From Bacteroidota bacterium (GTDB taxonomy: Bacteria > Bacteroidota > Rhodothermia > Rhodothermales > Bin80): 64,000 nucleotides of DNA. How positions within the stretch are numbered: the stretch's first letter is position 1; each line of letters begins with the position of its first letter. Positions 42,968 to 63,978 of this stretch are shown piece by piece. The notes under the pieces were generated by a model that was not told where the DNA came from, did not search any database, and saw nothing but the letters and a program-made list of their open reading frames with translations. The position numbers were made by a program, and so were the translations under genes. Location: the NCBI GenBank assembly GCA_028875125.1, contig JAPPGC010000016.1, positions 62,001 to 126,000 on the forward strand. The letters run 5' to 3'.

Positions 42968-44836
42968 TTATTTCCCTAAATACTGGAGTGTACGCTTTGC
43001 CGTCGCATCACCGGTCAGCCTGTAGAAATATGTGCCCGTACTGAGGCCGTCCGCGTACAGGACAGTCGAATGCTTACCCGCAGGATGGTGATGATCAGCC
43101 AGCGTACGTACAAGTTGGCCAAGCGTATTGAAGACCTCAAGAACTATATGGCCGGGCCGCCCTACCCGATAACTAATGACCGTAGCGTCCGTGAAAGGGT
43201 TAGGGTAATTACCGAGAAGATCTGTTTTTTCGTTTTTAGGTGTCTCTTCGCTACCGGTGGGGGACCTCAGTCGAAATTGGAACCAGTTCACCTTTGTCCC
43301 ATTGCTGAGAAACTGAATCTTCATGATCTGGGTCCCCTCATCCAGGGCAATACCGTCTTCTGTGATTACGCGAACGGTCGTAAAGTCATCAAAATGGCTT
43401 GGGTGTGTGAAAACACCGATCTTATCTACACCGTCAAATTCAAGCGAAAAGGAAACTTGGTTTGCCTGACTGGCCAGTCGTACCTGCAGATCGTAGATAC
43501 CCGACTGGTCTACATGCACGGTATAGGTCACCCATTCACGTCGGGCGATATTCCCGATATGATAGCCAATACCGTCAGTTGTCGGGAATACATCTACGCC
43601 TTCGTCAAGACGAATACCACCGCCCTCATTCGTAGGCGAAAAAGAGGCTTCAAGGTAGGCTACGCCTGGTCCTCCTAGATCAAAGTACTCTGCCTCTATC
43701 CGATCCTGGATAGGGTGGGGGCTCATCAAGTAGGGGGCATTGTCAGTGCATGAATTACCTACGGTCAGGGACTGCGCATCTGTAATACTGGTCCACCCGC
43801 CATCGTCCGTGGCTTCGGCGCGTAATTTGTAACATCCCGCGGATACGTTACTGGTGGACCAACTCCATTCCGATGCTCCCCCCGTAATTGTTTCTAGGAG
43901 GCCATCGCCCTGATAGAGGTTAACCCGTAGAATGCGACCGTCGGGGTCTACGGATGTGCCCGTAATCACGGCTGTCTCGCCGGCTTCCAACGTAGCAGGT
44001 GCAGCGAGTGTTACTTGGGGATAATCAATGTAGCGGTATACACGTACATGGTCAATGAGCATCTGCTGAGGAAAGATGCTGTCGTCAATACCCTGTATTC
44101 CTCCCCATGCACCTCCAATGGCAATATTCATAATCAGATGGAAATCCAGGTCAAACGGCCAGCCCTGCCAATTACTCAGCCCTTTGGAGTACGTCCAGAA
44201 ATCAACTCCGTCAATGGAAAACACCATCTTCCTCGGCGACCATTCCACGGCGTAAACATGGAAATTGTCTGAGACACCTGGCACACGCTTACTTCCGCCT
44301 CTTTGCGTGTCAATCATGTGGTTGTACGCATCAGTATGAATGGTCGCATGAATTAGATCCTGATCGAATCCAACGTGCTCCATGATGTCAATTTCACCCG
44401 TATCAGGCCACCCCCCATTGCCGTAATGGCTGTCTGTGGGGAGCATCCAGATCGCTGGCCAAGTACCTCTTCCAGATGGAAGTTGCGCACGAACCTCTAT
44501 GCGTCCATACGTCCAATCCCCCTTGTGTTTAGAGACTAGTCGTGCAGAAGTGTAAGAGCGACCGCGCCAGTCTTCTTTTCTGGCTTCTATGATTAGATGG
44601 TCGCCGTCAGCCCTAGCATTTTCTTCCCGGTTTTCCGTGTAGAACTGGTCTTCCTGATTGCCCCATCCGTGCCCACCCACATCGTAAGACCAGCGAGAAC
44701 TATCGGGCAACCCCGTGTAGTCAAATTCATCGTTCCAGATCAACTCCCATGAGGACTGTGCAAACAGGTGCGGGACCGGCGTCACTCCGATGAGCAAGCA
44801 AACAAAAAACGAGGTGGCAGAATGACCTGAACGCAT
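42968..44836 (-). CDS. GH16 beta-glucanase (laminarinase type) with CBM6-like and T9SS sorting domains
   Basis: This 622-aa secreted enzyme has a signal peptide ending near VPHLFAQ. The GH16 catalytic domain covers about residues 30-260, with GTWPAIWMLPTDSHYGNGGWP and the active-site EIDIME (nucleophile Glu148, acid/base Glu153). This motif fits endo-beta-1,3(4)-glucanases. An Ig-like module (PQVTLAAPATLEAGETAVIT) follows, then a CBM6-like domain (RIEAEYFDLGGPGVAYLEA) and a T9SS type A C-terminal signal (NYPNPFTDATVISYRV ... GTYFYRLTG). The product is expected to be exported across the outer membrane and attached to or released from the surface. Substrate: laminarin or mixed-linkage glucan, inferred. 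Confidence 0.92.
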   Translation of the reverse strand: MRSGHSATSFFVCLLIGVTPVPHLFAQSSWELIWNDEFDYTGLPDSSRWSYDVGGHGWGNQEDQFYTENREENARADGDHLIIEARKEDWRGRSYTSARLVSKHKGDWTYGRIEVRAQLPSGRGTWPAIWMLPTDSHYGNGGWPDTGEIDIMEHVGFDQDLIHATIHTDAYNHMIDTQRGGSKRVPGVSDNFHVYAVEWSPRKMVFSIDGVDFWTYSKGLSNWQGWPFDLDFHLIMNIAIGGAWGGIQGIDDSIFPQQMLIDHVRVYRYIDYPQVTLAAPATLEAGETAVITGTSVDPDGRILRVNLYQGDGLLETITGGASEWSWSTSNVSAGCYKLRAEATDDGGWTSITDAQSLTVGNSCTDNAPYLMSPHPIQDRIEAEYFDLGGPGVAYLEASFSPTNEGGGIRLDEGVDVFPTTDGIGYHIGNIARREWVTYTVHVDQSGIYDLQVRLASQANQVSFSLEFDGVDKIGVFTHPSHFDDFTTVRVITEDGIALDEGTQIMKIQFLSNGTKVNWFQFRLRSPTGSEETPKNEKTDLLGNYPNPFTDATVISYRVGRPGHIVLEVFNTLGQLVRTLADHHHPAGKHSTVLYADGLSTGTYFYRLTGDATAKRTLQYLGK

Positions 44837-45425: not shown

Positions 45426-47078
45426 ATGAGGTTTCCCGGCCCTAAAGGCATCGGATTACTTCCTGACGCTATGATTTGCTGTGTACTGGCAGGGATTTGC
45501 ATACTTGTTTCGGGTTGCTCGAACGAAGTTCAGCATTTTACCAACGTGACTCGTGAAGCGGGACTGGCCGATTTTGCACACGAGAATGGTGCATCTGGCT
45601 CAACGTGGATGCCAGAGATCCTGCCGCCGGGCCTTGCGTTTGTGGATTACAATGGCGACGGTCATCCAGATATAGCACTCGTACAAGGGGGGACGTGGGA
45701 CTCGCTTGAAGCACAACCACCGGCCATTCGACTCTATGCCAATGATGGCTCAGGCTACTTCAGCGAGGTTACCCAAGATGCAGGCCTGGAGGAGGTAGTG
45801 ACTTACGGAATGGGGATTGCATCGGCTGATTACGACAATGATGGTGATGCAGATTTATTCTTAACCTCATTGGGACATGATATACTACTTCGTAACAACG
45901 ATGGGGTCTATACTGTGATGCAATCAGGGGCCGAAGGGCCGTTTGCGTGGAGTACTGCGGCTGTATTTTTTGATGCAGATCGCGATGGTTGGCTGGATCT
46001 CTATGTAGGTGGGTATGTGCGCTGGAACTCCGAAACTGACCTACGGTGTGAAGGGCCGGGTGAAGAAAAGATTTACTGTACACCGGCAGCATATGATGGG
46101 CAGCCTCACCGTTTTTATCATAACAATGCGGATGGGACCTTTACTGATTGGACGGAAGAGGCTGGTTTTTTATCGACTCCAGGGAAGACATTGGGGGCGG
46201 TCCTCCTGGATGTGAATGGCGATCTGTGGCCTGATCTAGCTGTGGCAAACGACCTCGAAAGGGATCAGTTATACATCAACCTGGGAGATGGCACATTCAT
46301 AGAGCGTGGGCTAATGGCAGGGATTGCCTATGATGCACGAGGGATTGCAACGGCTGGAATGGGGGTAGATGCAGGAATTATGAGCGGGGAATGGTCCATA
46401 TTAGTCGGAAATTTTTCCAATCAGATGATCGGCGTTTGGCAATATGCAGGAGAAGGAGTGTTTCGTGATCACTCATCTGCGTCACGCATAGGGGGCGCGA
46501 GCCGCCAAACCTTGGCATTCGGACTGTTTCTGTTTGACGCTGACCTGGATGGAGATGATGATGTGTTTGTGGCCAATGGCCACATTCACGAACATGTAGA
46601 ACATGGATCCAGTGGGATTAAGTTTTATCAGCGACCTCATCTGTTTATTAACATGGGGGATGGGGGATTTACAGACGAAGGAATTTTTGAGCCGTTATTG
46701 GGGCGGGGAGCAGCGTATGCGGACATAGATCGGGACGGAGATCTGGATATTCTGATGGGTCAGAATGGTGCAGGTGTTCGTCTGTGGCGCAACAATATGC
46801 AAGGTCGATACCTGCGTGTGAGGCTTGAGGGCGTGAGCAGTAACCGTGATGGTGTTGGGGCATATGTGAGTCTGTATACGTCTACCGGCTTGAAGCAACG
46901 CCATATACGGTCGGGTGGCAGTTATCTGTCGGAATCAGAACGGGTGCTGACCTTTGGTCTGGGTGCGTCCGACATAGTTGATTCGCTAAATGTTCTATGG
47001 CCCAGTGGACAGCGCTCACGTCTAATCGGGTCGCTCGTGAATACGACTACTATTGTTCGTGAAGGTACTGCGGAATAG
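45426..47078 (+). CDS. CRTAC1-family FG-GAP/ASPIC-UnbV lipoprotein, copy A
   Basis: This 550-aa lipoprotein has signal peptide ending ICILVSGC. The mature protein is a beta-propeller of FG-GAP/VCBS repeats with calcium-type loops: FVDYNGDGHPDIALVQGG, ADYDNDGDADLFLTSLG, FDADRDGWLDLYVGGY, DVNGDLWPDLAVANDLERDQL, FDADLDGDDDVFVANGHIHE and ADIDRDGDLDILMGQN. The C-terminal ASPIC/UnbV domain (YLRVRLEGVSSNRDGVGAYVSL; LNVLWPSGQ) closes it. Such proteins are surface-exposed and often near TonB receptors; a role in binding carbohydrate or other ligands is inferred. It abuts the TPR gene with no gap and is homologous to the protein at 61293-62960. Confidence 0.9.
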   Translation: MRFPGPKGIGLLPDAMICCVLAGICILVSGCSNEVQHFTNVTREAGLADFAHENGASGSTWMPEILPPGLAFVDYNGDGHPDIALVQGGTWDSLEAQPPAIRLYANDGSGYFSEVTQDAGLEEVVTYGMGIASADYDNDGDADLFLTSLGHDILLRNNDGVYTVMQSGAEGPFAWSTAAVFFDADRDGWLDLYVGGYVRWNSETDLRCEGPGEEKIYCTPAAYDGQPHRFYHNNADGTFTDWTEEAGFLSTPGKTLGAVLLDVNGDLWPDLAVANDLERDQLYINLGDGTFIERGLMAGIAYDARGIATAGMGVDAGIMSGEWSILVGNFSNQMIGVWQYAGEGVFRDHSSASRIGGASRQTLAFGLFLFDADLDGDDDVFVANGHIHEHVEHGSSGIKFYQRPHLFINMGDGGFTDEGIFEPLLGRGAAYADIDRDGDLDILMGQNGAGVRLWRNNMQGRYLRVRLEGVSSNRDGVGAYVSLYTSTGLKQRHIRSGGSYLSESERVLTFGLGASDIVDSLNVLWPSGQRSRLIGSLVNTTTIVREGTAE

Positions 47079-47903
47079 ATGCGGAGTCGTTGGTTGCTAC
47101 TGATTCAATTGGTATGGATACTTGGCTGTAAGTCTGCTCCGGCTCCATTACCGGACTCGGCGGCGATTCTACTCCAGGAAGCTACCCTTTCGTTAAATGA
47201 GAATGCTCCGGGGCGAGCGATCAGCTTGGCCGAACAAGCCGGACAAATAGCACCAGGGCATCCACATCCTCATTTTATTCTGGGGCAGGCGCACTACGTT
47301 CGTGGCAATTATACGGAGGCGCGCAGATCCTGGGAGACGGCAAGCGGTCTGGATCCAGACAACTGGGTCTGGTCCCAAACGCTGGGGGATGTAGCTTTTC
47401 AGCAGGCAGATTACCAAGCATCTTTAGACTATTATTTGCGTGCAGTCCGTATGCATCCAGACGCCGTTTCGTGGCATGGCGCCGCCGGTGCATACTGGGA
47501 GATGGGCCTTACAGAATATGCCTGGGATGCTTGTCACCAGGCGTTGATTCTCGATCCTGACTATGCTCCAGCGTACATCAGTCTTGCAATGATTGCGGAG
47601 CATATGGGAGAGCTGGAGGATGCGCTAAGCTATGTCGAACAGGCATTAAGCCTGTCTCCTGAGAATCCCGCCAGCCTGTTGGCTGCTGGGCGCCTAGCTA
47701 GGCTTACCGGCAACGAAGATTACGCTGTATCTGTGCTAAGTAAAGCACTGGAGCAAGTTCCGGGGCACCCTGAAATCCTCTATAATCTGGCTATGGCGCT
47801 GCTTCAGGCGGGAAAGGGTGAGCAAGCTGCCACGATGTTGGAGGGGTTAGATACCGAAAAAAGCCCACCCAATAGGCTCCGGCCAGGCCATGAGATTCGG
47901 TAG
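47079..47903 (+). CDS. TPR-repeat lipoprotein, copy A
   Basis: This 274-aa protein has signal peptide MRSRWLLLIQLVWILGC (lipid cysteine 17). It then carries about six tetratricopeptide repeats, with signatures such as HPHFILGQAHYVRGNYTEARRSW, GDVAFQQADYQASLDYYLRA and AYISLAMIAEHMGELEDALSY. TPR domains bind partner proteins. The ATG follows the CRTAC1 stop directly (TAGATG), so the pair is made as a unit and may work together at the outer membrane. It is convergent with the PPIase gene 26 bp away. Confidence 0.88.
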   Translation: MRSRWLLLIQLVWILGCKSAPAPLPDSAAILLQEATLSLNENAPGRAISLAEQAGQIAPGHPHPHFILGQAHYVRGNYTEARRSWETASGLDPDNWVWSQTLGDVAFQQADYQASLDYYLRAVRMHPDAVSWHGAAGAYWEMGLTEYAWDACHQALILDPDYAPAYISLAMIAEHMGELEDALSYVEQALSLSPENPASLLAAGRLARLTGNEDYAVSVLSKALEQVPGHPEILYNLAMALLQAGKGEQAATMLEGLDTEKSPPNRLRPGHEIR

Positions 47904-47929: not shown

Positions 47930-49240
47930 CTATTGGACCATTATCTGAGCGAAAAGGAGCGAGTCAATACGGACGGATGCTGTGCTTTGGAGCGCATCAA
48001 TGAGCGTGCTGTCAGGATCCAGTTGACGCATGGAGTTGGCCAAGTAGGTCCTAGTATAGTATTCCACATCTCTTTGTACAATTGCATCCCCTTCCAGGTT
48101 AGCGTCTATCCCGGCTAATGCAAAAGCTTCGTTGCGCACCGCACGCCCTATAGAAGCAGCTGGTCTCGATCTAGCTTCCCTGAAAGGAAGTTCAGAGAAC
48201 CAGAAAAAATAATCCTCAGCAGTAAAGGTCTGGGCTGTTTCGTTCATGATGAACGTCGCTAAAGGCGTCGTAGATGTCAGTGGCGGGGCAGGTGTGTCGT
48301 AATCATCGTCTAGTGTTACCTGGCCGCCCGAGACCCGACGTTCAATTCGGGAAAGGGCGGCATCCAGTGCCCGTAAACCCTGTGGGTCAACGCGTACATG
48401 AAGGTTCTCCATAAAGGCGCGTACAAAGTGATCCCCTTTCAGCCGGCGCTTACGGATACGCATCAGGCTTGCAATCCCGGCCTTTCGATTTTGGAATTCC
48501 GATTCCGTCATGATTGGGGTTGCAATACGATCTTCAATTTTGATGATGTGCCACCCCTGTCGGCTGCGCACTGGCGCAGAAAAACTCCCTGTCTCCAACG
48601 AAAAGGCCGCCTCAGCGAAGGCATCGTCCACCTGAAAGTAACGAACCTCGCCAAGCCATCCAGCCGTAGAGTCAAAACTCACGGTCTGGAAGCAGATCTG
48701 TGCTTCATCAACAAAAGATGTCCCTGTCTGGAGTCTCGTGTATGCGTCGTTAGCTTCCGTCTCACTACCGTAGAAAAGATGACGGGCTATAACGGGTTGC
48801 TTATATCGAGCAAATGCTTGGCGAATGTCGGTCTCTGTTGGCTGTGCCAGCTGTTCAAGAAACTCCAACTCATAGTAACGACCGCCCAAGGCACGTTTTC
48901 TGGCCAGGTCGATGAACAGTGCGAGCGAGGTGTCGGCGTCCAGTTCGCGGCGGAGTGCTTCTTCGTACCAAAGCTGATCCTCAATCAAGGTGTTTAGGTG
49001 GCTGTAGCGTGCACCTGGGGTATCATTTTGACCGCTGCGGATAAGTACATCCACGTAGGAACGTTCAAATTCACCGACTGTGACACTGTAGCCGTTTACG
49101 TCGGCCAGAGCCCGGTCCTTCTCACTTGAAGGCGGGGAACAGCCGGTAGCCAAGAGAAATACTGCCCCCCAGAGGCTAGAAGTACATCCGAAAATCAACC
49201 ACTTGTGTCTGCCCGAGAAGGTCGAATGGGGTGTATGCAT
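47930..49240 (-). CDS. SurA/PpiC-type peptidyl-prolyl isomerase lipoprotein
   Basis: This 436-aa chaperone or isomerase assists folding of outer-membrane or secreted proteins in the periplasm. The signal peptide ends FLLATGC, a lipobox. The N-terminal SurA-like helices (ADVNGYSVTVGEFERSYVDV) lead to one parvulin domain: VIARHLFYGSETEANDAYTRLQTGTSF, WLGEVRYFQVDDAFAEAAFSLETG, and PVRSRQGWHIIKIEDR. The ATG at 49240 with AGGA seven bases upstream is well supported, so the gene overlaps the PorV-like gene end by 65 bases, which suggests coupling. Context (T9SS substrates, OMPs) fits a client-specific chaperone. Confidence 0.86.
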   Translation of the reverse strand: MHTPHSTFSGRHKWLIFGCTSSLWGAVFLLATGCSPPSSEKDRALADVNGYSVTVGEFERSYVDVLIRSGQNDTPGARYSHLNTLIEDQLWYEEALRRELDADTSLALFIDLARKRALGGRYYELEFLEQLAQPTETDIRQAFARYKQPVIARHLFYGSETEANDAYTRLQTGTSFVDEAQICFQTVSFDSTAGWLGEVRYFQVDDAFAEAAFSLETGSFSAPVRSRQGWHIIKIEDRIATPIMTESEFQNRKAGIASLMRIRKRRLKGDHFVRAFMENLHVRVDPQGLRALDAALSRIERRVSGGQVTLDDDYDTPAPPLTSTTPLATFIMNETAQTFTAEDYFFWFSELPFREARSRPAASIGRAVRNEAFALAGIDANLEGDAIVQRDVEYYTRTYLANSMRQLDPDSTLIDALQSTASVRIDSLLFAQIMVQ

Positions 49241-50231
49241 AATCAAATCCTATTTGCAAGCCAAATGCTCGAACATCCACTCCGGCTCCAAAGGTCGCGT
49301 GACTGTCGACATTATCTAGAAACAGATCTTTGTAGCCGCCCCGAAGGTCAAAATTGAAGGTACGGTTATGAACACGGAGTTGTGCTCCGACATCGCTGTT
49401 CAGGCTGTTGTCGTTGCTTTGCTGGATATCTGCAAGGGCCATCAACTCCATCATACCGACCTGTACTACGGGCATGGCCATGCCAAACTTGAAGGAGAGT
49501 GGCAAGTCCCATGCATCCATTTCGATGCGGGCGGGGATATCCGGGTTATTGCCACTGGTAGTTTCGTCAATATCAACAAACACGACACTATTGATACCGG
49601 TCATTTGCATTTTGCCGCCGAAATTCTGGATTGATGCCGCCAGAACCAAGCCACCTAGGTAACCGGACTGGAGAACAAATCCAACATCAAAGCCAACGGT
49701 GCTAGCGTGCATATCCCTGATTTGCTGGCGCACATACTTGGCGGTGCCACCGAAGTAAAATGATTCAGTCAGCGGCTGCGCGTAGCTAAGGCCCAAACTG
49801 AAATCATTTGCCCGAAAGGTTTCGCCGGTTCCTTCAGGAAAGGCTACCGTACGTACGATCATGGTACCGTAGTTCACAGCTGCTACACTGAGTCCCAGCA
49901 CACGATCACCTGAAACAGGGATCACGGTTGCAGCAGCGTTGTAGGTGATGTCTGCAAACCAGCGCGAATGGGAGAGGAAGACACTGCCTGAGGAGTGATC
50001 ACCATAGGTGCGTGCAGCTCCGGCAGGGTTCCAAAACAGCGCATCAGCACCGGTTGCAAGGGCGGTGTAAGCATGCCCCAATGACTGACCGCGTGCCCCA
50101 GTTCCAATCGTCAGAAAGGCTGCGGCAGTCGTACCAGATCGACTTTGCGCGACCACTGTACAGGTCATGCACAGGACCAATGTGATCAACAGGATAAGCC
50201 GTCCTGTCACTATGCGTAGCGTGTGGTTCAT
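49176..50231 (-). CDS. PorV/PorQ-family outer-membrane protein
   Basis: This 351-aa protein has signal peptide MNHTLRIVTGRLILLITLVLCMTCTVVAQS. The mature part begins with the family motif AAAFLTIGTGARGQSLGHAYTALATGADALFWNPAG and continues with a FadL-like beta barrel (FADITYNAAATVIPV, LGLSVAAVNYG, GFDVGFVLQSGYLGGLVLA) ending VDFRMYF. PorV is a shuttle of the type IX secretion system. The ATG at 50231 overlaps the upstream stop by 4 bases (ATGA); an in-frame upstream extension is implausible. Its place among T9SS substrates supports a secretion role, though PorV relatives elsewhere have other uses. Confidence 0.85.
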   Translation of the reverse strand: MNHTLRIVTGRLILLITLVLCMTCTVVAQSRSGTTAAAFLTIGTGARGQSLGHAYTALATGADALFWNPAGAARTYGDHSSGSVFLSHSRWFADITYNAAATVIPVSGDRVLGLSVAAVNYGTMIVRTVAFPEGTGETFRANDFSLGLSYAQPLTESFYFGGTAKYVRQQIRDMHASTVGFDVGFVLQSGYLGGLVLAASIQNFGGKMQMTGINSVVFVDIDETTSGNNPDIPARIEMDAWDLPLSFKFGMAMPVVQVGMMELMALADIQQSNDNSLNSDVGAQLRVHNRTFNFDLRGGYKDLFLDNVDSHATFGAGVDVRAFGLQIGFDYAYTPFDLLGQTQVVDFRMYF

Positions 50232-53200
50232 TTGACAAGTGCAAATTTGCCCACATGCTCCCCAATACCCGGGGCTTCTATGTGAAACACGTAAATGCCG
50301 AACGCAACATCCTGCTGCTCTTCGGTACGGAGATCCCACCACTCAGCCCCATCACTGACTACACCGTCATGATGCAGCGTACGGATCAGCTCTCCACGGA
50401 TGTTAAAGATGCGGATAGTGCACTGCGGAGGCAGGTGAATGAACTGGACCCGTCGCTCTCCGCGGCCTTCGATTTGGCTCCGTGGTTCAAACGCGGAAGA
50501 GCCGACATATGGATTGGGAACTACCGCAATACGATCAAGCTCACTACGTGCAAGATCTGCATCAATGGATGACGAGCGAAGCGTAAACTGAAAAAAGTCC
50601 CCGGTAGCAAAAGGCTTTCTAGAACTCACATGAAATGAGTTTCCTGCGGAAGGGGCAATGGAGCTGCCTCCGTCTGCAGCGCTGAACCTGATGCGGTAGC
50701 GAAAACGCCAGGGGCCACGTCCGGTGGGTCTTTCAGCGATGATCGCGTGGTCGCCAGCATCAAAGACCCTACTGCCATTGGTATCCTGCATGAACAGTTC
50801 GGCCGGCGTTCCCTTTGTTTCGTTGATGGTGAAAATGGGCACCTCTTCGCGCAGATACCCAAAGAACCGCGGGGGACGATAAAGAGAGTCAGTGGGGGAT
50901 ACCCAGATCAGTTTGTAGTCATCTGGTGAAGCACGGAACGCGGCCGTAGTATCTCGCTCTACAGAGGCAAGCCAGTTGGTGTCGTATCCGTCCAGTGTGC
51001 GTGGATTCAGGTCATACACTTCATTTTGCGAACCTTCGTTAGCTAGGAATCCGGTTTGTAACTCGTCCAGTTCACAGCCCAGGGGTGCCGGGCATTCGAC
51101 GTTATTTATTTCGATGATGAAGCCTTCGGCGGGCGGGGTTGCATCAATCATCGGAGAGGGCCCAAGGAGCACGTCTCCAGAAACGATGTTGGTCACCTGA
51201 TATGCGGTCGTTTCGTAGAGGTCAGCGACATCTGACACGAGGTCGCTGAAGAATGAGATACGGTAAATACCATCAAAGTCAGCTTCGGCCTCCTGGATGA
51301 TGCTCACAGAAACTGAGCCTGATCCAATGCCTTCTGTCACACGACTCAAATCTTCATTGGCACCGCCCTGAACATATCCGGCGGGTACGGACCTTGGTGT
51401 CACTACAGCTGCGTTGCGTGAAAATCCGGTCAAGCGCCCGGCTTGATTAACACTGACGTTGAAAGAATTTTCCTGTGGATCAATCCCTGCTTTTGCGGCA
51501 TCTTCAGAATCACGCACTCCTCGGTCATAAGCTACGAGGGCGTAGTAGTACGTAATTCCATTGGTTACATCTTCGTCGATATAGTGGAATTGAAGCCCAG
51601 TATTATCTCCAAGGTAATAGACGGCTTCACCTTCCAGTACGGTCACGGGTCCCTGAATGTCATTGATCAGATCCCATTGCGCAATTGGCTTGAAGAAAGT
51701 AGCCGCGCCGTCAACATCGGTAATGGTCCGGGCATCAAATAGTAGGGGGTCTGTGCCTTTGTAGAGTTTAAATCCCTCAAAATCAAACTCTTGGATGAAG
51801 CGGTCGAAACTTCGAACCGCGACGGTATCCCAGCTCAGGACCACCTGTCCGTCACCGGGAACTGCCGTGAGAGCTGGCAGGAATGGGGGCTGGGCAAAAC
51901 TGTAGTCAGCGTTAAAGATGCTTTGAGCCGTTCGCCGGTTCTTGAAAAAGTCACGTTCATCTTCGCCAAAAATCCAGGCGGTGGAGAAGAAATCGGTTCC
52001 TTTTGTCTCAAGTCCGATTGGGCCGGAAGAGAATAAGATGAAGGGTTCAAGATCTGCTTTGAAAGCGTCCGGTTTTGTGCCCAAGGGAAACTGTGCATAG
52101 TTGATGATCCTGTCCCACATCCATGCATCGTCCCGCAGGTTATCGCCGCTCTCATAGAAAGGACGCGTCTGAAGATCAAATCCAGTCAAACCGACCTGAT
52201 CAGATTCATCTACATCCAGCTCGTCAAAATTGGGTTCGCCAAGAGTAGGTATCCCATCGGCCTCACCATCGTCTGGGCCGGGGTAACCTAGATCAAATGG
52301 GCCCTGCCCGTCACGTCCGACATCATTATTGTGTGCTTCTCCCGGATCAAGAACACCATTGTTGTTCTCATCTGAAAAACCAACCCAGTCCAGATTTTCG
52401 TCTCCGGTCCACCACCGTCCTGCCTGATACGCGGGGCGTGACTCAAGCGGACCATTGTAGGCTTCAAAATTGGCAAGGTCATACATTGAACTGACAGCAC
52501 TCTGAATTGCTTGTTGCCCAACTATGAGAACGCCTGGCCCATTAAACCTAGACTCATCTGTGATACCGTCCTCATCATTATCCAAGCCATCAGTTGCCCG
52601 GGCGGGGCTTTCCAGAAATGCGAAACCGGTATAACCTAGTGGGTATGTGCCACCGGTGGAGCGTGTACCAATTCCGTCCTGATCCCAGCCGTAGGCTACG
52701 TCCTGTTGTGGATCGAATGCAGCGTTCTCATCACCTTCTTCGTTACCAAGCCCATAATCCATTATTTGGCCAAGGTAGAGGTCTGTATGGGTCTTTTCGG
52801 TTACGTTTGTGATACGATAGAGGATGAACATGATGTCTTCTGCAAGCACATTTGCCCACTGAAAGAGGCGGACTTGTGCTTGCAACCCCATTCCGCCAAT
52901 TGTGGAATCTGCAGCGCTTGGGTAGAAAACTCCGTATTCACTATTGGGTCTTCGGGTGTCGGGGTCAATGGCATACTCCAGGTCTGTGAAGTCATCCATG
53001 ACGTAAAAACTCTCCAGATCCGCATTGAACACGCCCCTGCCAAAAAACCCATTCCAGTTACCCGGCCAACCTGGATCATCGGGATTATTCAGCCGGTCGG
53101 GCCAGAACTGCGGCCACGAAGTAGGATCGTCACTTAGTGCAGGGGTTGGTGTTCGTTGCCCAGTGATTGGATCCAGGCGGTTTTCGTTCATGAATCCGGG

Positions 53201-53608
53201 TAGCGGGGTCCACCCCCAAAGTGACCCATCCGGGCTCAGCCTTTTACCAAAATCTCGGTACGTAAGAATAACGGGGTTTAGGGTTGTATCGCCTCGGGCC
53301 CCTGGAAAAAATTCCCGCCATTTAGTTCTTTCCCCTGGAACTTGGCCGGCTACCATAATGCCGACACCGTCAATATGCCTTCCACCAATGCCGCGCGGCC
53401 ATACACCGAACGGTATGTCATTCCAGCGCGCAAGTTCACCGTGGTTACGGAAATTGGTCTCAATAAGATTACCATCCAGTACACCACGCGCGATAAGTGT
53501 CTCATCTCCCCGGAGATCCGAAGAGATGTTTTGCCCATAGCTGGTTGCGGTCAGAGTGCAAGTGACAGCCAGACCGAGGAAGAGCCAGCGGATTCTTGCA
53601 CGTTGCAT
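50228..53608 (-). CDS. Large secreted protein with T9SS-type C-terminal domain, function unknown
   Basis: This 1126-aa protein has a signal peptide ending SYGQN. The N-terminal 600 residues contain Asp/Asn-rich calcium-type loops (DENNNGVLDPGE, DGLDNDEDGITDESRFNG, GPDDGEADGIPTLGEPNFDE). A fibronectin-like module follows (PPFLPALTAVPGDGQVVLSWDT ... YYYALVAYDRG). The C-terminal domain (VVPNPYVGSSAFEPRS, CTIRIFNIRGELIRTLHHD, GIYVFHIEAPG) resembles a type IX sorting domain. No catalytic motif is recognised. Its ATG overlaps the TonB stop by one base (TAATG) and its stop overlaps the PorV-like ATG, so it is the middle of a tight operon. It is probably a surface-exposed ligand-binding protein. Confidence 0.8.
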   Translation of the reverse strand: MQRARIRWLFLGLAVTCTLTATSYGQNISSDLRGDETLIARGVLDGNLIETNFRNHGELARWNDIPFGVWPRGIGGRHIDGVGIMVAGQVPGERTKWREFFPGARGDTTLNPVILTYRDFGKRLSPDGSLWGWTPLPGFMNENRLDPITGQRTPTPALSDDPTSWPQFWPDRLNNPDDPGWPGNWNGFFGRGVFNADLESFYVMDDFTDLEYAIDPDTRRPNSEYGVFYPSAADSTIGGMGLQAQVRLFQWANVLAEDIMFILYRITNVTEKTHTDLYLGQIMDYGLGNEEGDENAAFDPQQDVAYGWDQDGIGTRSTGGTYPLGYTGFAFLESPARATDGLDNDEDGITDESRFNGPGVLIVGQQAIQSAVSSMYDLANFEAYNGPLESRPAYQAGRWWTGDENLDWVGFSDENNNGVLDPGEAHNNDVGRDGQGPFDLGYPGPDDGEADGIPTLGEPNFDELDVDESDQVGLTGFDLQTRPFYESGDNLRDDAWMWDRIINYAQFPLGTKPDAFKADLEPFILFSSGPIGLETKGTDFFSTAWIFGEDERDFFKNRRTAQSIFNADYSFAQPPFLPALTAVPGDGQVVLSWDTVAVRSFDRFIQEFDFEGFKLYKGTDPLLFDARTITDVDGAATFFKPIAQWDLINDIQGPVTVLEGEAVYYLGDNTGLQFHYIDEDVTNGITYYYALVAYDRGVRDSEDAAKAGIDPQENSFNVSVNQAGRLTGFSRNAAVVTPRSVPAGYVQGGANEDLSRVTEGIGSGSVSVSIIQEAEADFDGIYRISFFSDLVSDVADLYETTAYQVTNIVSGDVLLGPSPMIDATPPAEGFIIEINNVECPAPLGCELDELQTGFLANEGSQNEVYDLNPRTLDGYDTNWLASVERDTTAAFRASPDDYKLIWVSPTDSLYRPPRFFGYLREEVPIFTINETKGTPAELFMQDTNGSRVFDAGDHAIIAERPTGRGPWRFRYRIRFSAADGGSSIAPSAGNSFHVSSRKPFATGDFFQFTLRSSSIDADLARSELDRIAVVPNPYVGSSAFEPRSQIEGRGERRVQFIHLPPQCTIRIFNIRGELIRTLHHDGVVSDGAEWWDLRTEEQQDVAFGIYVFHIEAPGIGEHVGKFALVK

Positions 53609-56370
53609 TAGAAACGGTAATTGAGTCCGACACTGACCTTGCGGGGTGCTCCAAAGTTTTCCTGGCGATAATAAAACTCGTCCAAGCTGTTTAGCCCTCC
53701 TACCTGTGCACCGGTTCGCCGGAATAATTCTAGTGTAACAGATTCGTCAGCCCTTCCGGTATCCTCGTAAACACCCACTTCCTGCACGGTATCAAAGAGG
53801 TTCTGGGCCTGCAGGAACAGTTGCAGGTTCGCTTTGATGCCGGGTATACGGTAGTAAATGCGTACATCCGTACCGAATATAGACGGCTTGGTTGCGTTAT
53901 TCTTCTTTGAAGATCGAATAAACTCACGTACGGTTGTGTAGGGCGTACCGCTCTGTAGTCGGTTGATGAATGTGACGGAGAGTCCGGTTACCGGTTCTAC
54001 GGTGATAGTATTGTTGAGTACGTGTCTGCGGTCCCAGTCCAGACGTACAAGGGAAAGAATTTCGTCCAGACCGGCCTGTTGCCGACCAAAGGCTTCACCC
54101 GGGCTGGAGGAAGTTCCTTCGGCAAACTGCAGGGTGTAGTCAATAGTCCAGTTCAGGATGCCACCAGGTCGCTGGAAGAGTGAGAAGGTGAGGCCCCTTA
54201 TGGTGCCGTAGTCCCGGTTGATCCACCGGATAATGAAGTCTCCCTGCGGGGTTCGCGCAATTTCCTGGCCGGTGAGATTACGTACATCTTTCGAAAAGAT
54301 CGTGATCTCCATACCAATCCGGCGTGTGAATCCCTGTTGCAGGCCAACCTCAAAGGAAAGTGTGCGCTCAGGATTAATTCCTGGGTTACCAAATGAATTC
54401 GATAAGGAGGCGGGGTTGACCTCGTACTCCGGGTTCGTGTATAGAAGCCCGAATGAGGGAATCTGGAAGAACAGCCCAGCCGAAAAACGCATAACTCCGG
54501 TTTCCGAAATGGGAAAAGCCACGCCTAGGCGTGGGCTGAGCTGCATGTCTACTTTGGCCGGTTCACGATTGGAGATTGAATTCTCGGGATTGTCGGGGTC
54601 CGGTATTTCTTCAAGTTCTCCCTGTCCCCAGTCCAATGGTGATAGATAATCAGGATCAAAATAATCGAAGCGCAGGCCCGCATTAACAATAAGTCCGGTA
54701 AACTCCATCTTATCCTGCACATAGGCGGAAAACTCTACGGGATTTGCTTGGAGAGAGTTATCGGCGAACTGGTCGGGCGAGGGTTGGGGTAGGTTACCGG
54801 TCCGGAAGGAGCGTTCAATCCCAAAGTCCCTGTTGTCCAGGGTATGCAAGCGGGCCTGCATTCCAATTTTCATCAGGTGCACGCGATTGAGCTGATGAGA
54901 GTAGTCGGCAACAACAGTATGAGTTGCTGTAAGCTGATCGCTGGTAGAAAGGTCATTACCACCAACGGCAAATGCGTTTGCCCCCTGCAAAAAGGAGAAG
55001 TCACTGCTCACGTAACGTTCGTCGAAAGGCGACTCAAACAGGTACACTTCCGTTTTATCATGCAGGTAGCTATAAGAGAGATTTGCAAACGCGCTACTAC
55101 CTATGGTGTAATGCAATCCGAGGATGTGAGTCTGATTAAGGAAATGTACGGTATTGATGCCGTCAGGGATGTACTTGAGGTTATGATTGTAAGGCTGGAA
55201 CGTACCAGATTGGAAGAAGACGTTGTAGTCTACATTAAACCGTGGTGTTATCGCGTATCCCAGTGTAGCATTCACGGACAGGCGCTCAGTACTGTTACGG
55301 GGCACGAACGCGCCATCTCCTGAGGAATCAATGATCCAGGCCTCACGGGGTAACCCGGTATTCAGGTTCTGGGAAGAATCCGACGGAGCAAACAGGTTTC
55401 GTCCGATAAAGTGTGAGTTATCCTGCAGGTAGCGAACTGTTGCCTGCAGACCGAGGCGGTTACGGATCAGTGGTCCTCCCAGCGAAGCCTGCACATCAAG
55501 GAGATTCGGCAGGCTTGCAGCGTCCATGTAGGAGACAGTATCGGGTTTGAAGTCCGCGGCAGTGAGTGATGAACCGGGATCGGTTGTGCGACCGACAAAT
55601 TCCAGTTCCCGGTTACTCGCGATGGCACCTGCGTAGGCCAGCAAAGAGCTACTCCACCGGTCAGGTACGTCCTTGGTTACTATATTCACTACGCCACTCG
55701 TCGCCTGGCCATACTCAGCATTAAATACTCCGCTGATCACCTCCAGGCTCTCAACCATATTCTGTTCAATTTCGAATGCGGCGTCTTTACTGAATGCGTT
55801 GGTAATTGGTACACCGTTAACCAGATAGGTCACTTCACCGGTGCGTCCTCCCCGGAAGTGGCCATCAACGACACCCGCCTGCAGATTGATTGCATCTCGC
55901 ACATTCGTTACGGGTAGGACTTCAAGTTGCTCCGCATCAATAACAGCAGTGGTCGTAGTGCGATCCATCTCCACGATGGGGCGCTCAGCTACGACCACAA
56001 TCTCTTCGCCGAGAATTGCCTCCTCACGCAGTACAAAATTAACAGTTGTTGTTTGGTCCTGAACTACGCGGACGTTCTGGGTAGTGACCGTTGCGAAACC
56101 TACGAAGGAGGCCCGGACGCTGTAGGTGCCAGGCGGAATATTGAGGATATAGTAGTACCCGTCAGCGTCGGTCACACCCCCAATCACGGTGCCCTCAAGA
56201 ATAACATTGACGCCAGGAAGCCCTTGATTGGTGCCTGCTTCCAAGACCCTTCCAGCAATCTTACCAGTCGGACCGGAGGGGCGGGCAAATAAGTTACCCG
56301 TCCCTCCAGCACCGATCATCAGTAAAAGTATGAGCGACGCAGCAAAGCTGCGACGCAACTGACCATGCAT
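53608..56370 (-). CDS. TonB-dependent receptor with N-terminal carboxypeptidase-regulatory domain
   Basis: This 920-aa outer-membrane receptor opens with MHGQLRRSFAASLILLLMIGAGG, a signal peptide. The beta-sandwich regulatory domain (KIAGRVLEAGTNQGLPGVNVIL ... YYILNIPPGTYSVRASFVGF) is followed by the plug (LPVTNVRDAINLQAGVVDGHFRGG; SLEVISGVFNAEYGQATSG) and barrel, ending KVSVGLNYRF with an aromatic last residue as required for BAM. Its start overlaps the stop of the upstream gene by one base (TAATG). It likely imports oligosaccharides or calcium-bound ligands bound by the neighbouring secreted proteins; there is no SusD. Confidence 0.92.
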   Translation of the reverse strand: MHGQLRRSFAASLILLLMIGAGGTGNLFARPSGPTGKIAGRVLEAGTNQGLPGVNVILEGTVIGGVTDADGYYYILNIPPGTYSVRASFVGFATVTTQNVRVVQDQTTTVNFVLREEAILGEEIVVVAERPIVEMDRTTTTAVIDAEQLEVLPVTNVRDAINLQAGVVDGHFRGGRTGEVTYLVNGVPITNAFSKDAAFEIEQNMVESLEVISGVFNAEYGQATSGVVNIVTKDVPDRWSSSLLAYAGAIASNRELEFVGRTTDPGSSLTAADFKPDTVSYMDAASLPNLLDVQASLGGPLIRNRLGLQATVRYLQDNSHFIGRNLFAPSDSSQNLNTGLPREAWIIDSSGDGAFVPRNSTERLSVNATLGYAITPRFNVDYNVFFQSGTFQPYNHNLKYIPDGINTVHFLNQTHILGLHYTIGSSAFANLSYSYLHDKTEVYLFESPFDERYVSSDFSFLQGANAFAVGGNDLSTSDQLTATHTVVADYSHQLNRVHLMKIGMQARLHTLDNRDFGIERSFRTGNLPQPSPDQFADNSLQANPVEFSAYVQDKMEFTGLIVNAGLRFDYFDPDYLSPLDWGQGELEEIPDPDNPENSISNREPAKVDMQLSPRLGVAFPISETGVMRFSAGLFFQIPSFGLLYTNPEYEVNPASLSNSFGNPGINPERTLSFEVGLQQGFTRRIGMEITIFSKDVRNLTGQEIARTPQGDFIIRWINRDYGTIRGLTFSLFQRPGGILNWTIDYTLQFAEGTSSSPGEAFGRQQAGLDEILSLVRLDWDRRHVLNNTITVEPVTGLSVTFINRLQSGTPYTTVREFIRSSKKNNATKPSIFGTDVRIYYRIPGIKANLQLFLQAQNLFDTVQEVGVYEDTGRADESVTLELFRRTGAQVGGLNSLDEFYYRQENFGAPRKVSVGLNYRF

Positions 56371-58931
56371 TATTTGATCAATTGCATGTACCGTGTCATT
56401 ACTACGGACGTCCCAACTTCCAGTCTGTAAATATAGACGCCTGAGGCTAATCCAGCACCGTCAAAACTTACGGTATGCGTCCCTGCTGTCTGTGGCTTTT
56501 GATTCAGGAGGGTTGCGACTGGTCTTCCGAGTGTGTCAAAGACACGCAGCGTAACGGTTTCGGATTCAGGCAGTGCGAATTGAATTGATGTGCTTGGATT
56601 GAAGGGGTTGGGATAGTTCTGGTCCAAGGCGATCTCTTTTGGAAGCTCATTGGCGTCTTCAAGACTTGTCTGGGTCACGTCGGTAACCGTCACCTCCAGG
56701 TTCATGGTCTTGCCATCGTAGTCCATGTCTGTACTAGACGCAGTGTGCACGAGTGTCACCATGTCATCGTCTCCATCTCCATCTATCGCCGCCGTCATCA
56801 TGACCGCCTGTGCTGTGTCCCAGTTCTGCATCGTAAACGTCAGGCCCGAGAAATCTGTACTCGCATCCCCATCATTATCCAGCGTTAGATCCGTCCCGTC
56901 TTGTCCCGTAATCGCCACCATCACATCGGCCGTTGGTTCTGAGGTGAGCTTCACGTAATAGGTCTGACTCCCGGCCTCATCCACAGATAGGGTGGTGATC
57001 GCTGCACCAGCAGCCATCTCGGAAAGCTCAATTTCCGCCCTCATCATACCACCTTGCGCTTCCCGGCCAGCCAAGGCTACAGCGGGCCATTGCGCCGGTG
57101 TATTCCACCACTGTCCGTCGGCATTGCCCTTAAGGGACCACTGGATCTGATTATCGCGATTTCCTCCGTCTCCATCATTCAGCACGAAGTTGAATGGGAA
57201 GTAGGAGACATCCGAGCCTGTGGGGAGAGGAGTAATGGCATCCATTTGATCAGTATTCTGGATCTGATCCAGCGGGATCACGGAGAGCAACTTATAGCCC
57301 GAGACCTGGCCACTAGCGTCCATTAGCTGATCATAAATTGCTCCCGCACCTTGTGGAACGGCATCTATGCTCCAGCCAACAAAGATGGCTCCGGCAGTAC
57401 CTGCTTTGGTACCGTCGCCTTGACCCATAAGCCGGAATTGATAATCAGCAAAATCGCCACGCATAATATCCTGATGCGGGGTACCCGAGAAGATCCCACC
57501 GCCATCAACATCTCGCACATCGTAGTTTCCCCATCCAAATTCAATGCTGTCATGTTGCCAGCCGTCAGCTGGATTTCCACCTGCAGCCTGCAAGGTAATC
57601 TCATCGTCGGTCACCTCCACATAGAGGTACAGTTCAGGAGGGTCAGCACCATAACCTGCCCAGAGCTTGGCGCTCAGGTCCTCGTCTGGGGTTAACTGGC
57701 CACCATCTCCGGGCTTGGAGCGTGCCCGATTAAGCTCAAAAGGCATGTACCCATCAGGAAAGCCATCCTCCACTACATTGTCAAACATGTCACCGAAGAG
57801 CTGGTCAGTAAGGTGATTTATTTCGTCCTCAGTCAGTTCCGCAATATGAGCCTGAATGGGAAGGTTTTCATTCGCGACCTCCCCCTTGCTCATTGATATG
57901 TCAGTGTTTTCAACTCCGAACCCACTTAACGTTGTTACTGCGTAGTGTACCGTAAGTGGAGCCAATGATGCGTGTGGAACCTCAATTTTGTGGTGGACGG
58001 AGGTCACGCCGCCAGTAGCTCGTGCAGCCAAACTAACTCCACTCGCCTTAATGTCCGTTATGTCATTGACGCTGGAATAGACGTTGTATCCGTCCGCACC
58101 ATCTACGGGCATCCACGATATCATATTACTGTCGGCTGTAGCCGTAACCGAAACCCCCGCGGCTGCACTTACGGGATCATTTGCCACAGAGAGATCCAGG
58201 TTTTCTGCTCCGATATAGACGTCGTCTACATAAATGGTACCTCCGCCTGTATTGTTGTCAAAGAAGACCCCAATGTTCTGGACGTTGGTCCATTCAAACT
58301 CTTCCCAAAGCTGAGGGTTGTCTACTGTATTAGGGCCAAGTTCATCACCAACGCCAACCCCAAATCCTCCACTGGACCAGGCGCCTACATATTTCCATAG
58401 GCTGTCCAAGCCGTCCAGAGTGCTGGCCGTCTTGGCGTCTTCGAGTTCGGTATAGGTGGCCGGGGGCAACGGAATTGAAACTTCATGCCACTGGCCATCC
58501 CGCATACTTTCAGGTATGCGCCAAGCTAGACGGAAGGGCAGGTCAGCAGAACCGTCATCAGCCGAGCTTCCGTCTGTCTTGTCTTCAAACATAAGCTGGA
58601 CGTTTGGCATTCCGGCGTTTGCCGGATCAACCCAAATCCTGGCATGCAGCACATCACCGTCGGCACGGTTTTGTGATATATCGACGCCAACATCTGCGGG
58701 GAAGCGAAAGGCTTGGAAAGCCCAGTTCCCATACACATATTCGACGATCGCATTTGTCGGATCAGCCGGATCTTCTATGATATTGCCATCAAAGGAAGGG
58801 ACCAATGTGTTGGTTCCATTAACAAAGAAAATGAAGTCATCCCCCAGTGGTGGACCAGCCTGTCCGTGGGCATCCGAGGCTGCAAAAAGCAGCAGGATGA
58901 CGGTAAACAAGTAGATAGCAGTGTGCCTCAT
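56370..58931 (-). CDS. Secreted CBM9-like and Calx-beta-like protein with T9SS sorting domain
   Basis: This 853-aa protein starts at MRHTAIYLFTVILLLFAASDAHG, a clean signal peptide (a 14-codon upstream extension is less likely). The N-terminal jelly-roll domain (FRFPADVGVDISQNRADGDVLHARIWV ... TIYVDDVYIGAE) looks like a carbohydrate-binding fold. A fibronectin-like module follows, then a CBM9-like domain (ELYLYVEVTDDEITLQAAGG), a Calx-beta-type repeat (TTLSVDEAGSQTYYVKLTSEPTADVMVAI) and a T9SS type A signal (DQNYPNPFNPSTSIQFALPE, GVYIYRLEVG). No catalytic site is visible, so a surface glycan-binding role is likely. It heads the operon. Confidence 0.85.
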   Translation of the reverse strand: MRHTAIYLFTVILLLFAASDAHGQAGPPLGDDFIFFVNGTNTLVPSFDGNIIEDPADPTNAIVEYVYGNWAFQAFRFPADVGVDISQNRADGDVLHARIWVDPANAGMPNVQLMFEDKTDGSSADDGSADLPFRLAWRIPESMRDGQWHEVSIPLPPATYTELEDAKTASTLDGLDSLWKYVGAWSSGGFGVGVGDELGPNTVDNPQLWEEFEWTNVQNIGVFFDNNTGGGTIYVDDVYIGAENLDLSVANDPVSAAAGVSVTATADSNMISWMPVDGADGYNVYSSVNDITDIKASGVSLAARATGGVTSVHHKIEVPHASLAPLTVHYAVTTLSGFGVENTDISMSKGEVANENLPIQAHIAELTEDEINHLTDQLFGDMFDNVVEDGFPDGYMPFELNRARSKPGDGGQLTPDEDLSAKLWAGYGADPPELYLYVEVTDDEITLQAAGGNPADGWQHDSIEFGWGNYDVRDVDGGGIFSGTPHQDIMRGDFADYQFRLMGQGDGTKAGTAGAIFVGWSIDAVPQGAGAIYDQLMDASGQVSGYKLLSVIPLDQIQNTDQMDAITPLPTGSDVSYFPFNFVLNDGDGGNRDNQIQWSLKGNADGQWWNTPAQWPAVALAGREAQGGMMRAEIELSEMAAGAAITTLSVDEAGSQTYYVKLTSEPTADVMVAITGQDGTDLTLDNDGDASTDFSGLTFTMQNWDTAQAVMMTAAIDGDGDDDMVTLVHTASSTDMDYDGKTMNLEVTVTDVTQTSLEDANELPKEIALDQNYPNPFNPSTSIQFALPESETVTLRVFDTLGRPVATLLNQKPQTAGTHTVSFDGAGLASGVYIYRLEVGTSVVMTRYMQLIK

Positions 58932-60120: not shown

Positions 60121-61296
60121 TCATGGATGGGGTTGCTGCCTAGCCAATCTTTGCACAGCTGGATGATCTGGATCAACGAGGACAGCCTTTTGCCAGGCTT
60201 CTCTTGCCAGTGCCGTACGGTTGGTCTTTACATAGATCTCTCCCAAGCTCAACCATGCGAGAACGTAGTTCGAGTCAGTAACCAAAATGTGCAGTAGTTC
60301 CTGCTCTGCCTCCTCGAGGCTACCCAGTGCCATTTTAGCATTCGCAATATGAAACTGCAGATTAATATTGTTCGGCCGGAGAGCACGCGCGATCAGGTAT
60401 ACTCTCAAAGCTTCCTCTGTACGGCCGGAGCGGCGAAGCGCGGTCGCATAGTCAACTTGCGCCTGAAAGTTAGTAGGTTGACGGTTCGCAGTGTTGGCCA
60501 GGCGACCTGCTGCTTGCTCAATAGCTCGCAAAGAGTCCGCTTTGGTAAGAATTCTGGAGGATTGATCGGACTCCCCCAATTGCTGGAGTGCCTGTCCTAA
60601 TACGTATTGAGGTTCTGCGGTCCGCGGATTCCTAATAACGATGTCTTGAAGAAGAGGCACAGCCTCTTCACTGCGACCAAGTCGCAAGAGAAGTCTTCCC
60701 TGTCGAACCTGATCTGCAAGGTGATTCGGCCGAATTCTCAGTGCCATTCTGGTATGAGCCAAGGATTCGGTGTAGCTTCCCTGTTGCTCCAGCCAATCGG
60801 CCAGGCTGGTATGTGCAGGGGCATAAAGGGAGTCCAGAACAATTGCCTGCCTGAATGCAGCAACTGCACTGTCGGGCTCGCTTAGAACATTATATACCGC
60901 CCCCGCAGCATGCCATGACATCGCAGCAGCGCTGTCGTTGATGGCTTGAATAAATTGATCAAGAGCTTGGCGGTTTTGCCGCTGCCCATAGTAGACGTTG
61001 CCAAGATTGTGTCTGACGCCGGGGTAATCTCGTTCTATTTTGATAACAGCCAGGTATGCCGCCTCTGCGTTATCCCACTGCTGAAGTTCGAAGTAGATGC
61101 GTCCACGCATGAAATACGCATCCGCCGATTGGTTATCAAGTGTAAGTGCGCTGTCAGCCAGATTCAGGGCCTCGTGGTAATCCCGGAGCTCTAATGCTTC
61201 CTGCGACGCTTGTATGAGTTTCGCCACCCCCGGATTGCTCTCTCGAGGGCTGCAGGCCGACAGCATCAGGATAATTATGAGTACGTGTATTCTCAT
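60121..61296 (-). CDS. TPR-repeat lipoprotein, copy B
   Basis: This 391-aa lipoprotein has signal peptide MRIHVLIIILMLSAC. About nine to ten TPR units follow, such as ADAYFMRGRIYFELQQWDNAEAAYLAVI, VRHNLGNVYYGQRQNRQALDQFIQAI and AWLSLGEIYVKTNRTALAREAW. It is longer than copy A (274 aa) but of the same make. Its ATG overlaps the stop of the CRTAC1 copy B gene by 4 bases (ATGA), so the pair is translationally coupled. Likely role: scaffold or partner for the CRTAC1 protein at the outer membrane (inferred). Confidence 0.88.
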   Translation of the reverse strand: MRIHVLIIILMLSACSPRESNPGVAKLIQASQEALELRDYHEALNLADSALTLDNQSADAYFMRGRIYFELQQWDNAEAAYLAVIKIERDYPGVRHNLGNVYYGQRQNRQALDQFIQAINDSAAAMSWHAAGAVYNVLSEPDSAVAAFRQAIVLDSLYAPAHTSLADWLEQQGSYTESLAHTRMALRIRPNHLADQVRQGRLLLRLGRSEEAVPLLQDIVIRNPRTAEPQYVLGQALQQLGESDQSSRILTKADSLRAIEQAAGRLANTANRQPTNFQAQVDYATALRRSGRTEEALRVYLIARALRPNNINLQFHIANAKMALGSLEEAEQELLHILVTDSNYVLAWLSLGEIYVKTNRTALAREAWQKAVLVDPDHPAVQRLARQQPHP

Positions 61297-62960: not shown

Positions 62961-62967
62961 CGTCACA

Positions 62968-63978
62968 CTACTGCAGGTAAGGAATTCGCATTTCCAGAAT
63001 CGAAGACTCTCGAGGGATGAGTTCCAACGGCATGACCGGGCAATGAAGCTCATCGGAAGGTACACCGGCAATCCGACGAATCAATATATCCATCGCTTTT
63101 GCAGCAAGCACGTCAATCGGGACGTTTACAGTGGTTAGGGAAGGCGTTGCAAAGTCAGCGCTCTTTGTTCCATCAAAACCGGTGACAGCTATCTCATGCG
63201 GTACATTGATCCCATTCTCAAGTGGGGCGCGCAAGGCGCCAAGGGCCCCCAAGTCGTTTGCTGCGACGATGGCAGTCGGTCGTGGTTGCAGGCGCAGGAT
63301 TTCCTGAGCGCAATCATATCCGCTCTCAAAAGAAAAATCACCTGGATATTCGAGAATTTCCAACTCGCTCGGAGCAGCTTCACGAAATCCTTCCCGTCTT
63401 TGCTGTGCATCGAAAGCGTCATCGGGGCCGCGGATAAAAGCAATGCGTGTATGTCCCAGATTGGCGATATGTCGTGCTACGTCGGCCATACCTCCGTAGT
63501 TATCGAAATTAACGGTGTTTACTTTCTGGTCTCGTGATTCGGTGTTCAAAAAAACGAAAGGAAAGACCGGGTTCACCACTGACAGTACTTGCTCAGCGGA
63601 CAATTCGGGCACCATTATGACCATTCCGTCCACGCGCCGGTTCATGCTCTCGAAGACTGCGAGAAAATCAGTTTCGAGTCGCCGAGAGGAGCTGACCATG
63701 AGCAGGTAGTCATGCTCTTTGGCAGTTGTATCCAAACCAGATAGGAGATCTGCAAAAAATTCACCCGTTATTGAGGGTAATATCACGCCTATCGTGCGGG
63801 AGGCCAGCCCTAACAGCCTTCTCGCCGCCGGATTTGGTGAGAACTTGAGTGCCTTGATGGCAGCGATAACCCGCTCCCTCCTCTCAGGACCTACAGGAGC
63901 AGAATTATTGATTACGCGTGATACCGTGGAAATGGATACCTTGGCGTGATGTGCCACATCGTGAACAGTTGGAATCAT
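62968..63978 (-). CDS. LacI-family transcriptional regulator
   Basis: This 336-aa repressor has the N-terminal helix-turn-helix (VHDVAHHAKVSISTVSRVINN) and hinge helix (FSPNPAARRLLGLASRTIGVI), then a periplasmic-binding-protein-like effector domain with GHTRIAFIRGP, RPTAIVAANDLGALGAL and VTGFDGTKSADFATPSLTTV. Such regulators usually sense sugars. It lies 7 bp before the CRTAC1 copy B gene in the same direction, so it may autoregulate that operon and perhaps the T9SS-TonB operon. The effector is unknown. Confidence 0.92.
   Translation of the reverse strand: MIPTVHDVAHHAKVSISTVSRVINNSAPVGPERRERVIAAIKALKFSPNPAARRLLGLASRTIGVILPSITGEFFADLLSGLDTTAKEHDYLLMVSSSRRLETDFLAVFESMNRRVDGMVIMVPELSAEQVLSVVNPVFPFVFLNTESRDQKVNTVNFDNYGGMADVARHIANLGHTRIAFIRGPDDAFDAQQRREGFREAAPSELEILEYPGDFSFESGYDCAQEILRLQPRPTAIVAANDLGALGALRAPLENGINVPHEIAVTGFDGTKSADFATPSLTTVNVPIDVLAAKAMDILIRRIAGVPSDELHCPVMPLELIPRESSILEMRIPYLQ

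Follow-up and report, generated by a model that had tools for sequence, protein, structure and literature searches.

A probable SusD-free glycan-capture module in a Rhodothermia genome combines a TonB-dependent receptor, type IX secretion cargo and a PorV-family barrel

In the type IX secretion system (T9SS), type A cargo is served by one common PorV, while type B cargo is served by dedicated PorP/SprF shuttles that also act as anchors (PMC12618676, PMC9143113). Two loci described in Rhodothermus marinus lie close to the operon considered here: an alginate locus with the order tonB, hypA (a T9SS-sorted hypothetical), hypB (PorV/PorQ) and a hypothetical gene, for which no SusD is listed (PMC9530828), and the xylan locus Rmar_1070-1074, with the order TonB, hypothetical (T9SS), hypothetical, hypothetical (T9SS) and GH10 (PMC6987092). 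The operon lies on the minus strand at positions 47930-58931 of a 64,000-nucleotide stretch (the window) of contig JAPPGC010000016.1, positions 62,001 to 126,000, from a Rhodothermia bacterium. We consider it probable that this operon represents a copy of a TonB-dependent module for glycan capture and uptake that recurs and does without SusD, in which a large surface protein, here called BIG, would be exported by the shared T9SS and held by a cognate PorV as a lid.

The five open reading frames (ORFs) are tightly packed, all on the minus strand, and are listed in their order on that strand.

56370..58931, minus strand: T9SS-sorted surface protein, 853 aa, a beta-sandwich chain (CBM4_9/CBM9-like family) with a canonical type A C-terminal domain (CTD), from Por_Secre_tail, aligned members and AlphaFold2
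53608..56370, minus strand: TonB-dependent outer-membrane receptor, 920 aa, with a CarboxypepD_reg-like domain, TonB-box-like string, plug and barrel, from Pfam and TIGR04056
50228..53608, minus strand: BIG surface protein, 1126 aa, all-beta, with Asp-rich loops, an FN3-like region and a module-type T9SS CTD, from alignment, AlphaFold2, Foldseek and a CTD model
49176..50231, minus strand: PorV-family outer-membrane barrel, 351 aa, a module paralogue and not canonical PorV, from PorV_fam
47930..49240, minus strand: PPIC-type peptidyl-prolyl isomerase (PPIase) lipoprotein (SurA/PrsA-like), 438 aa, from its Rotamase domain

This operon had been proposed in a sequence-only reading of the window and is real, with ORFs at the positions first reported and with every junction confirmed: TAATG at 56370 between the 853-aa and TonB genes, TAATG at 53608 between the TonB and BIG genes, ATGA at 50228-50231 between the BIG and PorV-family genes, and a 65-nt overlap between the PorV-family and PPIase genes when ATG 49240 is taken as the start of the latter. 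Translation from this ATG gives a complete lipoprotein signal peptide with LATGC at its end, which makes it the preferred start. Scans for sigma-70 promoters and terminators gave matches at chance numbers only. The PPIase matched the Rotamase (PPIC) domain of Pfam at 41.7 bits, and the 920-aa protein matched CarboxypepD_reg-like, Plug (40 bits) and OMP_b-brl_3 (48 bits), as is expected of a TonB-dependent transporter, with a TonB-box-like EEIVVVAERP read from its sequence. The same protein reached 66 bits against the SusC/RagA model TIGR04056, whose cut-off is 368, and is not a SusC.

Relatives were sampled as 80 named loci in GTDB genomes, with counts limited to loci that have enough flank. 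BIG was immediately preceded by a TonB receptor in 70 of 75 loci and immediately followed by a PorV in 68 of 73, several of the exceptions being the same genes re-ordered, for example as TonB-PorV-BIG. The TonB-BIG-PorV lineages comprise Rhodothermota, Balneolota, Ignavibacteriota, Calditrichota, Fidelibacterota, KSB1, WOR-3/Stahlbacteria and Gemmatimonadota. At loci of the Rhodothermota/Balneolota type, the PPIase followed PorV wherever the downstream flank sufficed, giving the five-gene order (19/19), and the upstream tailed gene was always present (15/15); BIG identity within this group was ~48-86%, one near-identical locus (L039) aside. The slot after PorV in Ignavibacteriota is usually held by another T9SS-tailed gene. 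Since the gene order is conserved, the operon is not a chance arrangement; conservation in relatives, the check named when the operon was proposed, held for all five genes in this group and, for the triplet, far beyond Rhodothermota. Six genomes contained 10 to 19 PorV_fam matches each, with one canonical high scorer apiece, and 9 of the 14 PorV-family genes of a Rhodothermus-like genome (G003) lay in strict triplets.

Re-ordered, repeated and partial copies were also seen. Tandem modules occur at L097 (Neomarinimicrobiota) and L110 (Calditrichaeota), the former with two full TonB-BIG-PorV triplets and a third TonB-BIG pair. L100, L106 and L112 share a consistent TonB-PorV-BIG order and a PorV clade with 100/100 support, and this order probably arose once and was then kept. 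On a Latescibacterota chromosome (L070, CP070631.1), in a distant phylum, a partial BIG (72% identity, 427 aa) stands with a partial TonB gene, for which recent transfer, decay and contamination are candidate explanations.

Module proteins, the bodies of which are often unrelated to BIG, have a common CTD that scores below the TIGR04183 cut-off; BIG and seven other module proteins lacked the type A CTD as defined by TIGR04183/PF18962. Models of the module class and of the ordinary type A class were trained on L060-L099 (mainly Ignavibacteriota, Calditrichota, Fidelibacterota and WOR-3/KSB1 relatives, plus a few of Rhodothermota type, and including L077, a near relative of the own-genome locus L025) and then applied to further, held-out loci. 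The module class was found in 25 of 28 held-out tailed proteins directly upstream of PorV, the remaining three comprising one L033 protein and two PorU encoded next to canonical PorV, as against 4 of 56 located elsewhere, where the tails were nearly all ordinary type A (Mann-Whitney p 5e-12, a value that ignores kinship among loci). Three of those four are modules, one (L126) passed over by the gap limit and two (L137, L145) re-ordered; the fourth, L036, is the first gene of its contig and has no such explanation. The window genome alone gave the same split (8 vs 10, p 2e-5). An hhalign comparison (98%) shows the two CTD classes to be homologous. The sequence-only reading had taken two proteins of the operon to be T9SS-sorted, which stands for the 853-aa protein in its original form, as this carries Por_Secre_tail (Pfam 33.9 bits, TIGR04183 39 bits), a type A CTD; the tail of BIG (~ residues 1020-1126) instead belongs to the related but separate class, with 141.8 bits to the module model and no match to the canonical-tail model.

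Within the window genome, PorV distances correlated with CTD distances (rho 0.72, p 0.0009) and TonB distances with PorV distances (rho 0.61, p 0.005), and both correlations are free of species phylogeny. The tracking of the adjacent PorV by CTD class, together with this PorV-CTD co-diversification, is the strongest evidence for the module PorV as a cognate partner of BIG-type cargo, an assignment that is well supported at the level of sequence comparison. The gene orders and tail classes show that the TonB receptor, BIG and the PorV-family barrel form a jointly inherited unit, and that the BIG-type CTD class goes with the adjacent PorV. By analogy, the module looks like a type B arrangement, with cognate shuttle and anchor, performed by the PorV family. 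A different configuration was seen at L033 (8243-11754), where a T9SS-tailed gene, its tail nearer type A, precedes two tandem PorV-family genes and no TonB receptor is present.

BIG had no Pfam or TIGR04183 match, no CHU_C-type domain (PF13585, type B CTD) in the Pfam scan, and no significant match among PDB sequences. Its AlphaFold2 model is almost entirely beta (predicted local distance difference test, pLDDT, 85.8), the best Foldseek matches were PorZ and FN3 arrays with no SusD among them, and the invariant alignment columns D343, D345, G348, D351 and E352 fall in Asp-rich loops. A hidden or remote SusD was rejected on this all-beta model and these best folds, and an enzyme was rejected for want of Pfam and significant PDB sequence matches; Foldseek matches to phosphorylase and arabinanase beta-domains were weak, with TM scores no higher than ~0.2, and were discounted. 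The 853-aa protein was modeled as a beta-sandwich array (pLDDT 83.8). A carbohydrate-binding domain had been claimed for it; the window copy fell below threshold in the Pfam scan, while among the 28 members of its family alignment 15 have CBM9_1 and 4 have CBM_4_9.

No SusD-family lipoprotein lies beside the barrel or anywhere in the operon, and with BIG predicted to be all-beta, the SusD-free character originally attributed to the locus is upheld. The window genome has one clear SusD match, on another contig (C112). Among 148 genomes of the phylum, BIG was present in 66 and SusD in 81; BIG was absent from all 27 genomes that had at least 8 SusD matches and occurred without SusD in 28 genomes. 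Across the 109 genomes with either family the two counts were inversely related (rho -0.70), a relation of which lineage explains part.

Gene neighborhoods and the two Rhodothermus loci (PMC9530828, PMC6987092) point to glycan capture and uptake. Among 85 neighboring genes the commonest were glycoside hydrolases (GH) of family GH3 (12), sodium:solute symporters (9), binding-protein-dependent permeases (9) and GH130 (5), followed by ROK, sugar-binding proteins, GH94, GH16 and LacI. Two genes of the window bear on the likely substrate.

42968..44836, minus strand: GH16 and CBM6 enzyme with a T9SS tail, ~3 kb past the operon, a likely clue to a beta-glucan substrate
10190-13663: GH149 1,3-beta-glucan phosphorylase (1361 bits), adjoining a weak GH2-like protein

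Given the GH16-CBM6 protein 3 kb away and GH149 further off, beta-1,3-glucan, such as laminarin, is the best guess for the substrate of the window copy. Other copies likely serve other polysaccharides, with alginate and xylan as the Rhodothermus examples: one module copy in G003 closes with a GH10 xylanase gene and by its gene order appears to match the R. marinus xylan locus, and both published loci look like instances of the same triplet, left uninterpreted there. On both sides the operon is flanked by paralogous pairs of FG-GAP/UnbV-ASPIC and TPR proteins (window 45426-47903 and 60121-63071), and a gene pair of similar size also stands upstream of the operon in L041.

This setting bears on the alternative that survives best, in which the module assembles a surface structure or adhesin (S-layer-like or for attachment) and the TonB barrel is a sensor or scaffold rather than an importer. 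BIG and the 853-aa protein, as long chains of beta-domains with Ca-type loops and no recognized catalytic domain, would suit such a role, but the module recurs in polysaccharide loci among hydrolases and sugar permeases, its barrel retains the plug and TonB-box-like string, and the many diversified copies per genome fit substrate specificity, all of which makes this alternative unlikely.

The window genome (3.3 Mb, 98% complete), the operon of which is nearly identical to that of a Rhodothermaceae metagenome-assembled genome (L039), has eight complete triplets of TonB receptor, T9SS-tailed protein and PorV (the window copy and L024-L030) plus pieces at contig ends. All five families are present at L024 in the permuted order PPIase - TonB - BIG - PorV - tailed protein. 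Contig ends fall at module genes in L036 (C37 start), L031 (C61 end) and L032 (C117 start); repeated modules probably broke the assembly there, and the copy count for this genome may be too low. Canonical PorV (302 bits) adjoins PorU (969 bits) elsewhere in the genome, a PorV2-like protein is on another contig, and SprA is present, indicating that the export machinery is, by gene content, common to the whole genome and that the module PorVs are additional paralogues. The initial picture of a SusD-independent capture system with its own export machinery was thus right about SusD, gene order and PorV identity and overstated as to export: SprA, PorU and canonical PorV are shared, and only the shuttle-like PorV, joined by the PPIase in this lineage, is specific to the module.

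A shared apparatus of this kind, together with the common PorV of type A cargo (PMC12618676), is also what would be expected if an ordinary TonB receptor merely sat beside ordinary T9SS cargo, with the general PorV serving all, the paralogue having drifted and the clustering being only regulatory. We regard this as slightly less likely than an adhesin, because the order is fixed over several phyla, a separate CTD class is tied to the module PorVs, and PorV and CTD have co-diversified.

The 351-aa barrel scored 160 bits against PorV_fam (NF033709, cut-off 90), placing it in the PorV/PorQ family, and 55 bits against T9SS_OM_PorV (NF033710, cut-off 250), which sets it apart from canonical PorV; its PDB match was PorV (6H3I, E 8e-7), with none to FadL, and the module PorV profile, which includes canonical PorV, matched PorV at 9e-42 and TodX at 3e-6. 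The PorV tree set the main block of module sequences (80 rows, support 87/91) apart from PorV2 and the canonical PorV; because a number of own-genome sequences sit on long branches, finer placement was left unused. The barrel thus groups with PorV/PorQ, as first suggested, and a FadL-type transporter of hydrophobic compounds with accessory T9SS proteins is rejected as very improbable, since the 14-strand fold common to PorV and FadL (PMC9143113, PMC12611786) and the weak TodX match are outweighed by the PorV-only PDB match, the PorV_fam score, the PorV-tracking CTD class and the neighboring glycan enzymes and sugar permeases.

For the glycan-capture module, we infer the following mechanism. 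BIG would be exported by the common SprA translocon and be taken up at the exit by the cognate PorV rather than the general one, to which it would stay bound, with PorV serving as shuttle and anchor as PorP/SprF do for type B substrates. BIG could then cover the TonB barrel as its outer binding face or lid, as SusD does in SusCD, and glycan would be imported through the barrel; the 853-aa protein, with its ordinary type A tail, may be a further glycan-binding arm, and the periplasmic PPIase may help to fold or hold the secreted parts. Several points weigh against this interpretation: some PorV-family genes are solitary, without BIG; the within-genome correlation is based on only eight modules; the anti-correlation of BIG and SusD is confounded by phylogeny, as both families follow lineage; the beta-glucan assignment is based on genes several kb off; and BIG has no recognized ligand-binding domain or Foldseek match that fixes its function.

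More tentatively, and with somewhat less than even confidence, the non-Bacteroidia phyla of the Fibrobacterota-Chlorobiota-Bacteroidota superphylum could possess a general non-SusCD system for polysaccharide uptake, with a TonB barrel, an all-beta T9SS lid and a one-to-one PorV shuttle reading a third class of sorting signal, neither A nor B. If so, the PorV family has diversified into numerous cognate shuttles that fit a new class of tail, and the current view, in which type A cargo shares one PorV and only type B has dedicated shuttles, needs extending. The same applies to searches for polysaccharide utilization loci (PULs) in the superphylum, which look for SusCD and would have missed this route in many genomes of Ignavibacteriota, Calditrichota, Fidelibacterota (Marinimicrobia) and Rhodothermota. 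Tail class and adjacent PorV offer simple sequence tests, and hosts are cultivable. A literature search, from which most subscription journals were out of reach, found no account of the triplet as a system, and the module, present across several bacterial phyla, seems undescribed as such.

Compared with SusCD of Bacteroidota PULs, the module likewise pairs a TonB barrel with a large surface protein encoded alongside, sits in glycan loci and has many copies per genome, but it lacks SusD, its barrel is far under the SusC cut-off, its surface protein is all-beta T9SS cargo rather than an alpha-helical lipoprotein, and it has an additional PorV-family barrel. With the type B CTD and PorP/SprF pairs (SprB-SprF of Flavobacterium johnsoniae, PG1035-PorP of P. 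gingivalis) it shares T9SS cargo with a dedicated FadL-fold partner, often encoded by an adjacent gene, and a partner-specific tail class; it differs in a partner of the PorV family, a tail that is type A-like but outside TIGR04183, and a linked TonB barrel. Canonical PorV/PorU sorting of type A cargo has the same PorV family and a homologous CTD, but there one general shuttle serves all cargo, while each module has its own PorV, separate from the canonical PorV of the same genome. BamG-BamH of the Bacteroidota β-barrel assembly machinery (BAM) complex is also similar, as a FadL-fold barrel that docks a surface protein rather than acting as a transporter, with a PPIase-fold subunit (PMC12611786, PMC12578637), but it sits in the BamA complex with surface proteins that are lipoproteins and not T9SS cargo, and the best module PorV scored 36 bits against the BamG model (cut-off 250). 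Of the R. marinus loci, the alginate one (PMC9530828) has the same gene order and the xylan one (PMC6987092) matches the GH10 copy in G003, the genes being listed there as hypothetical, with no module or CTD class recognized.

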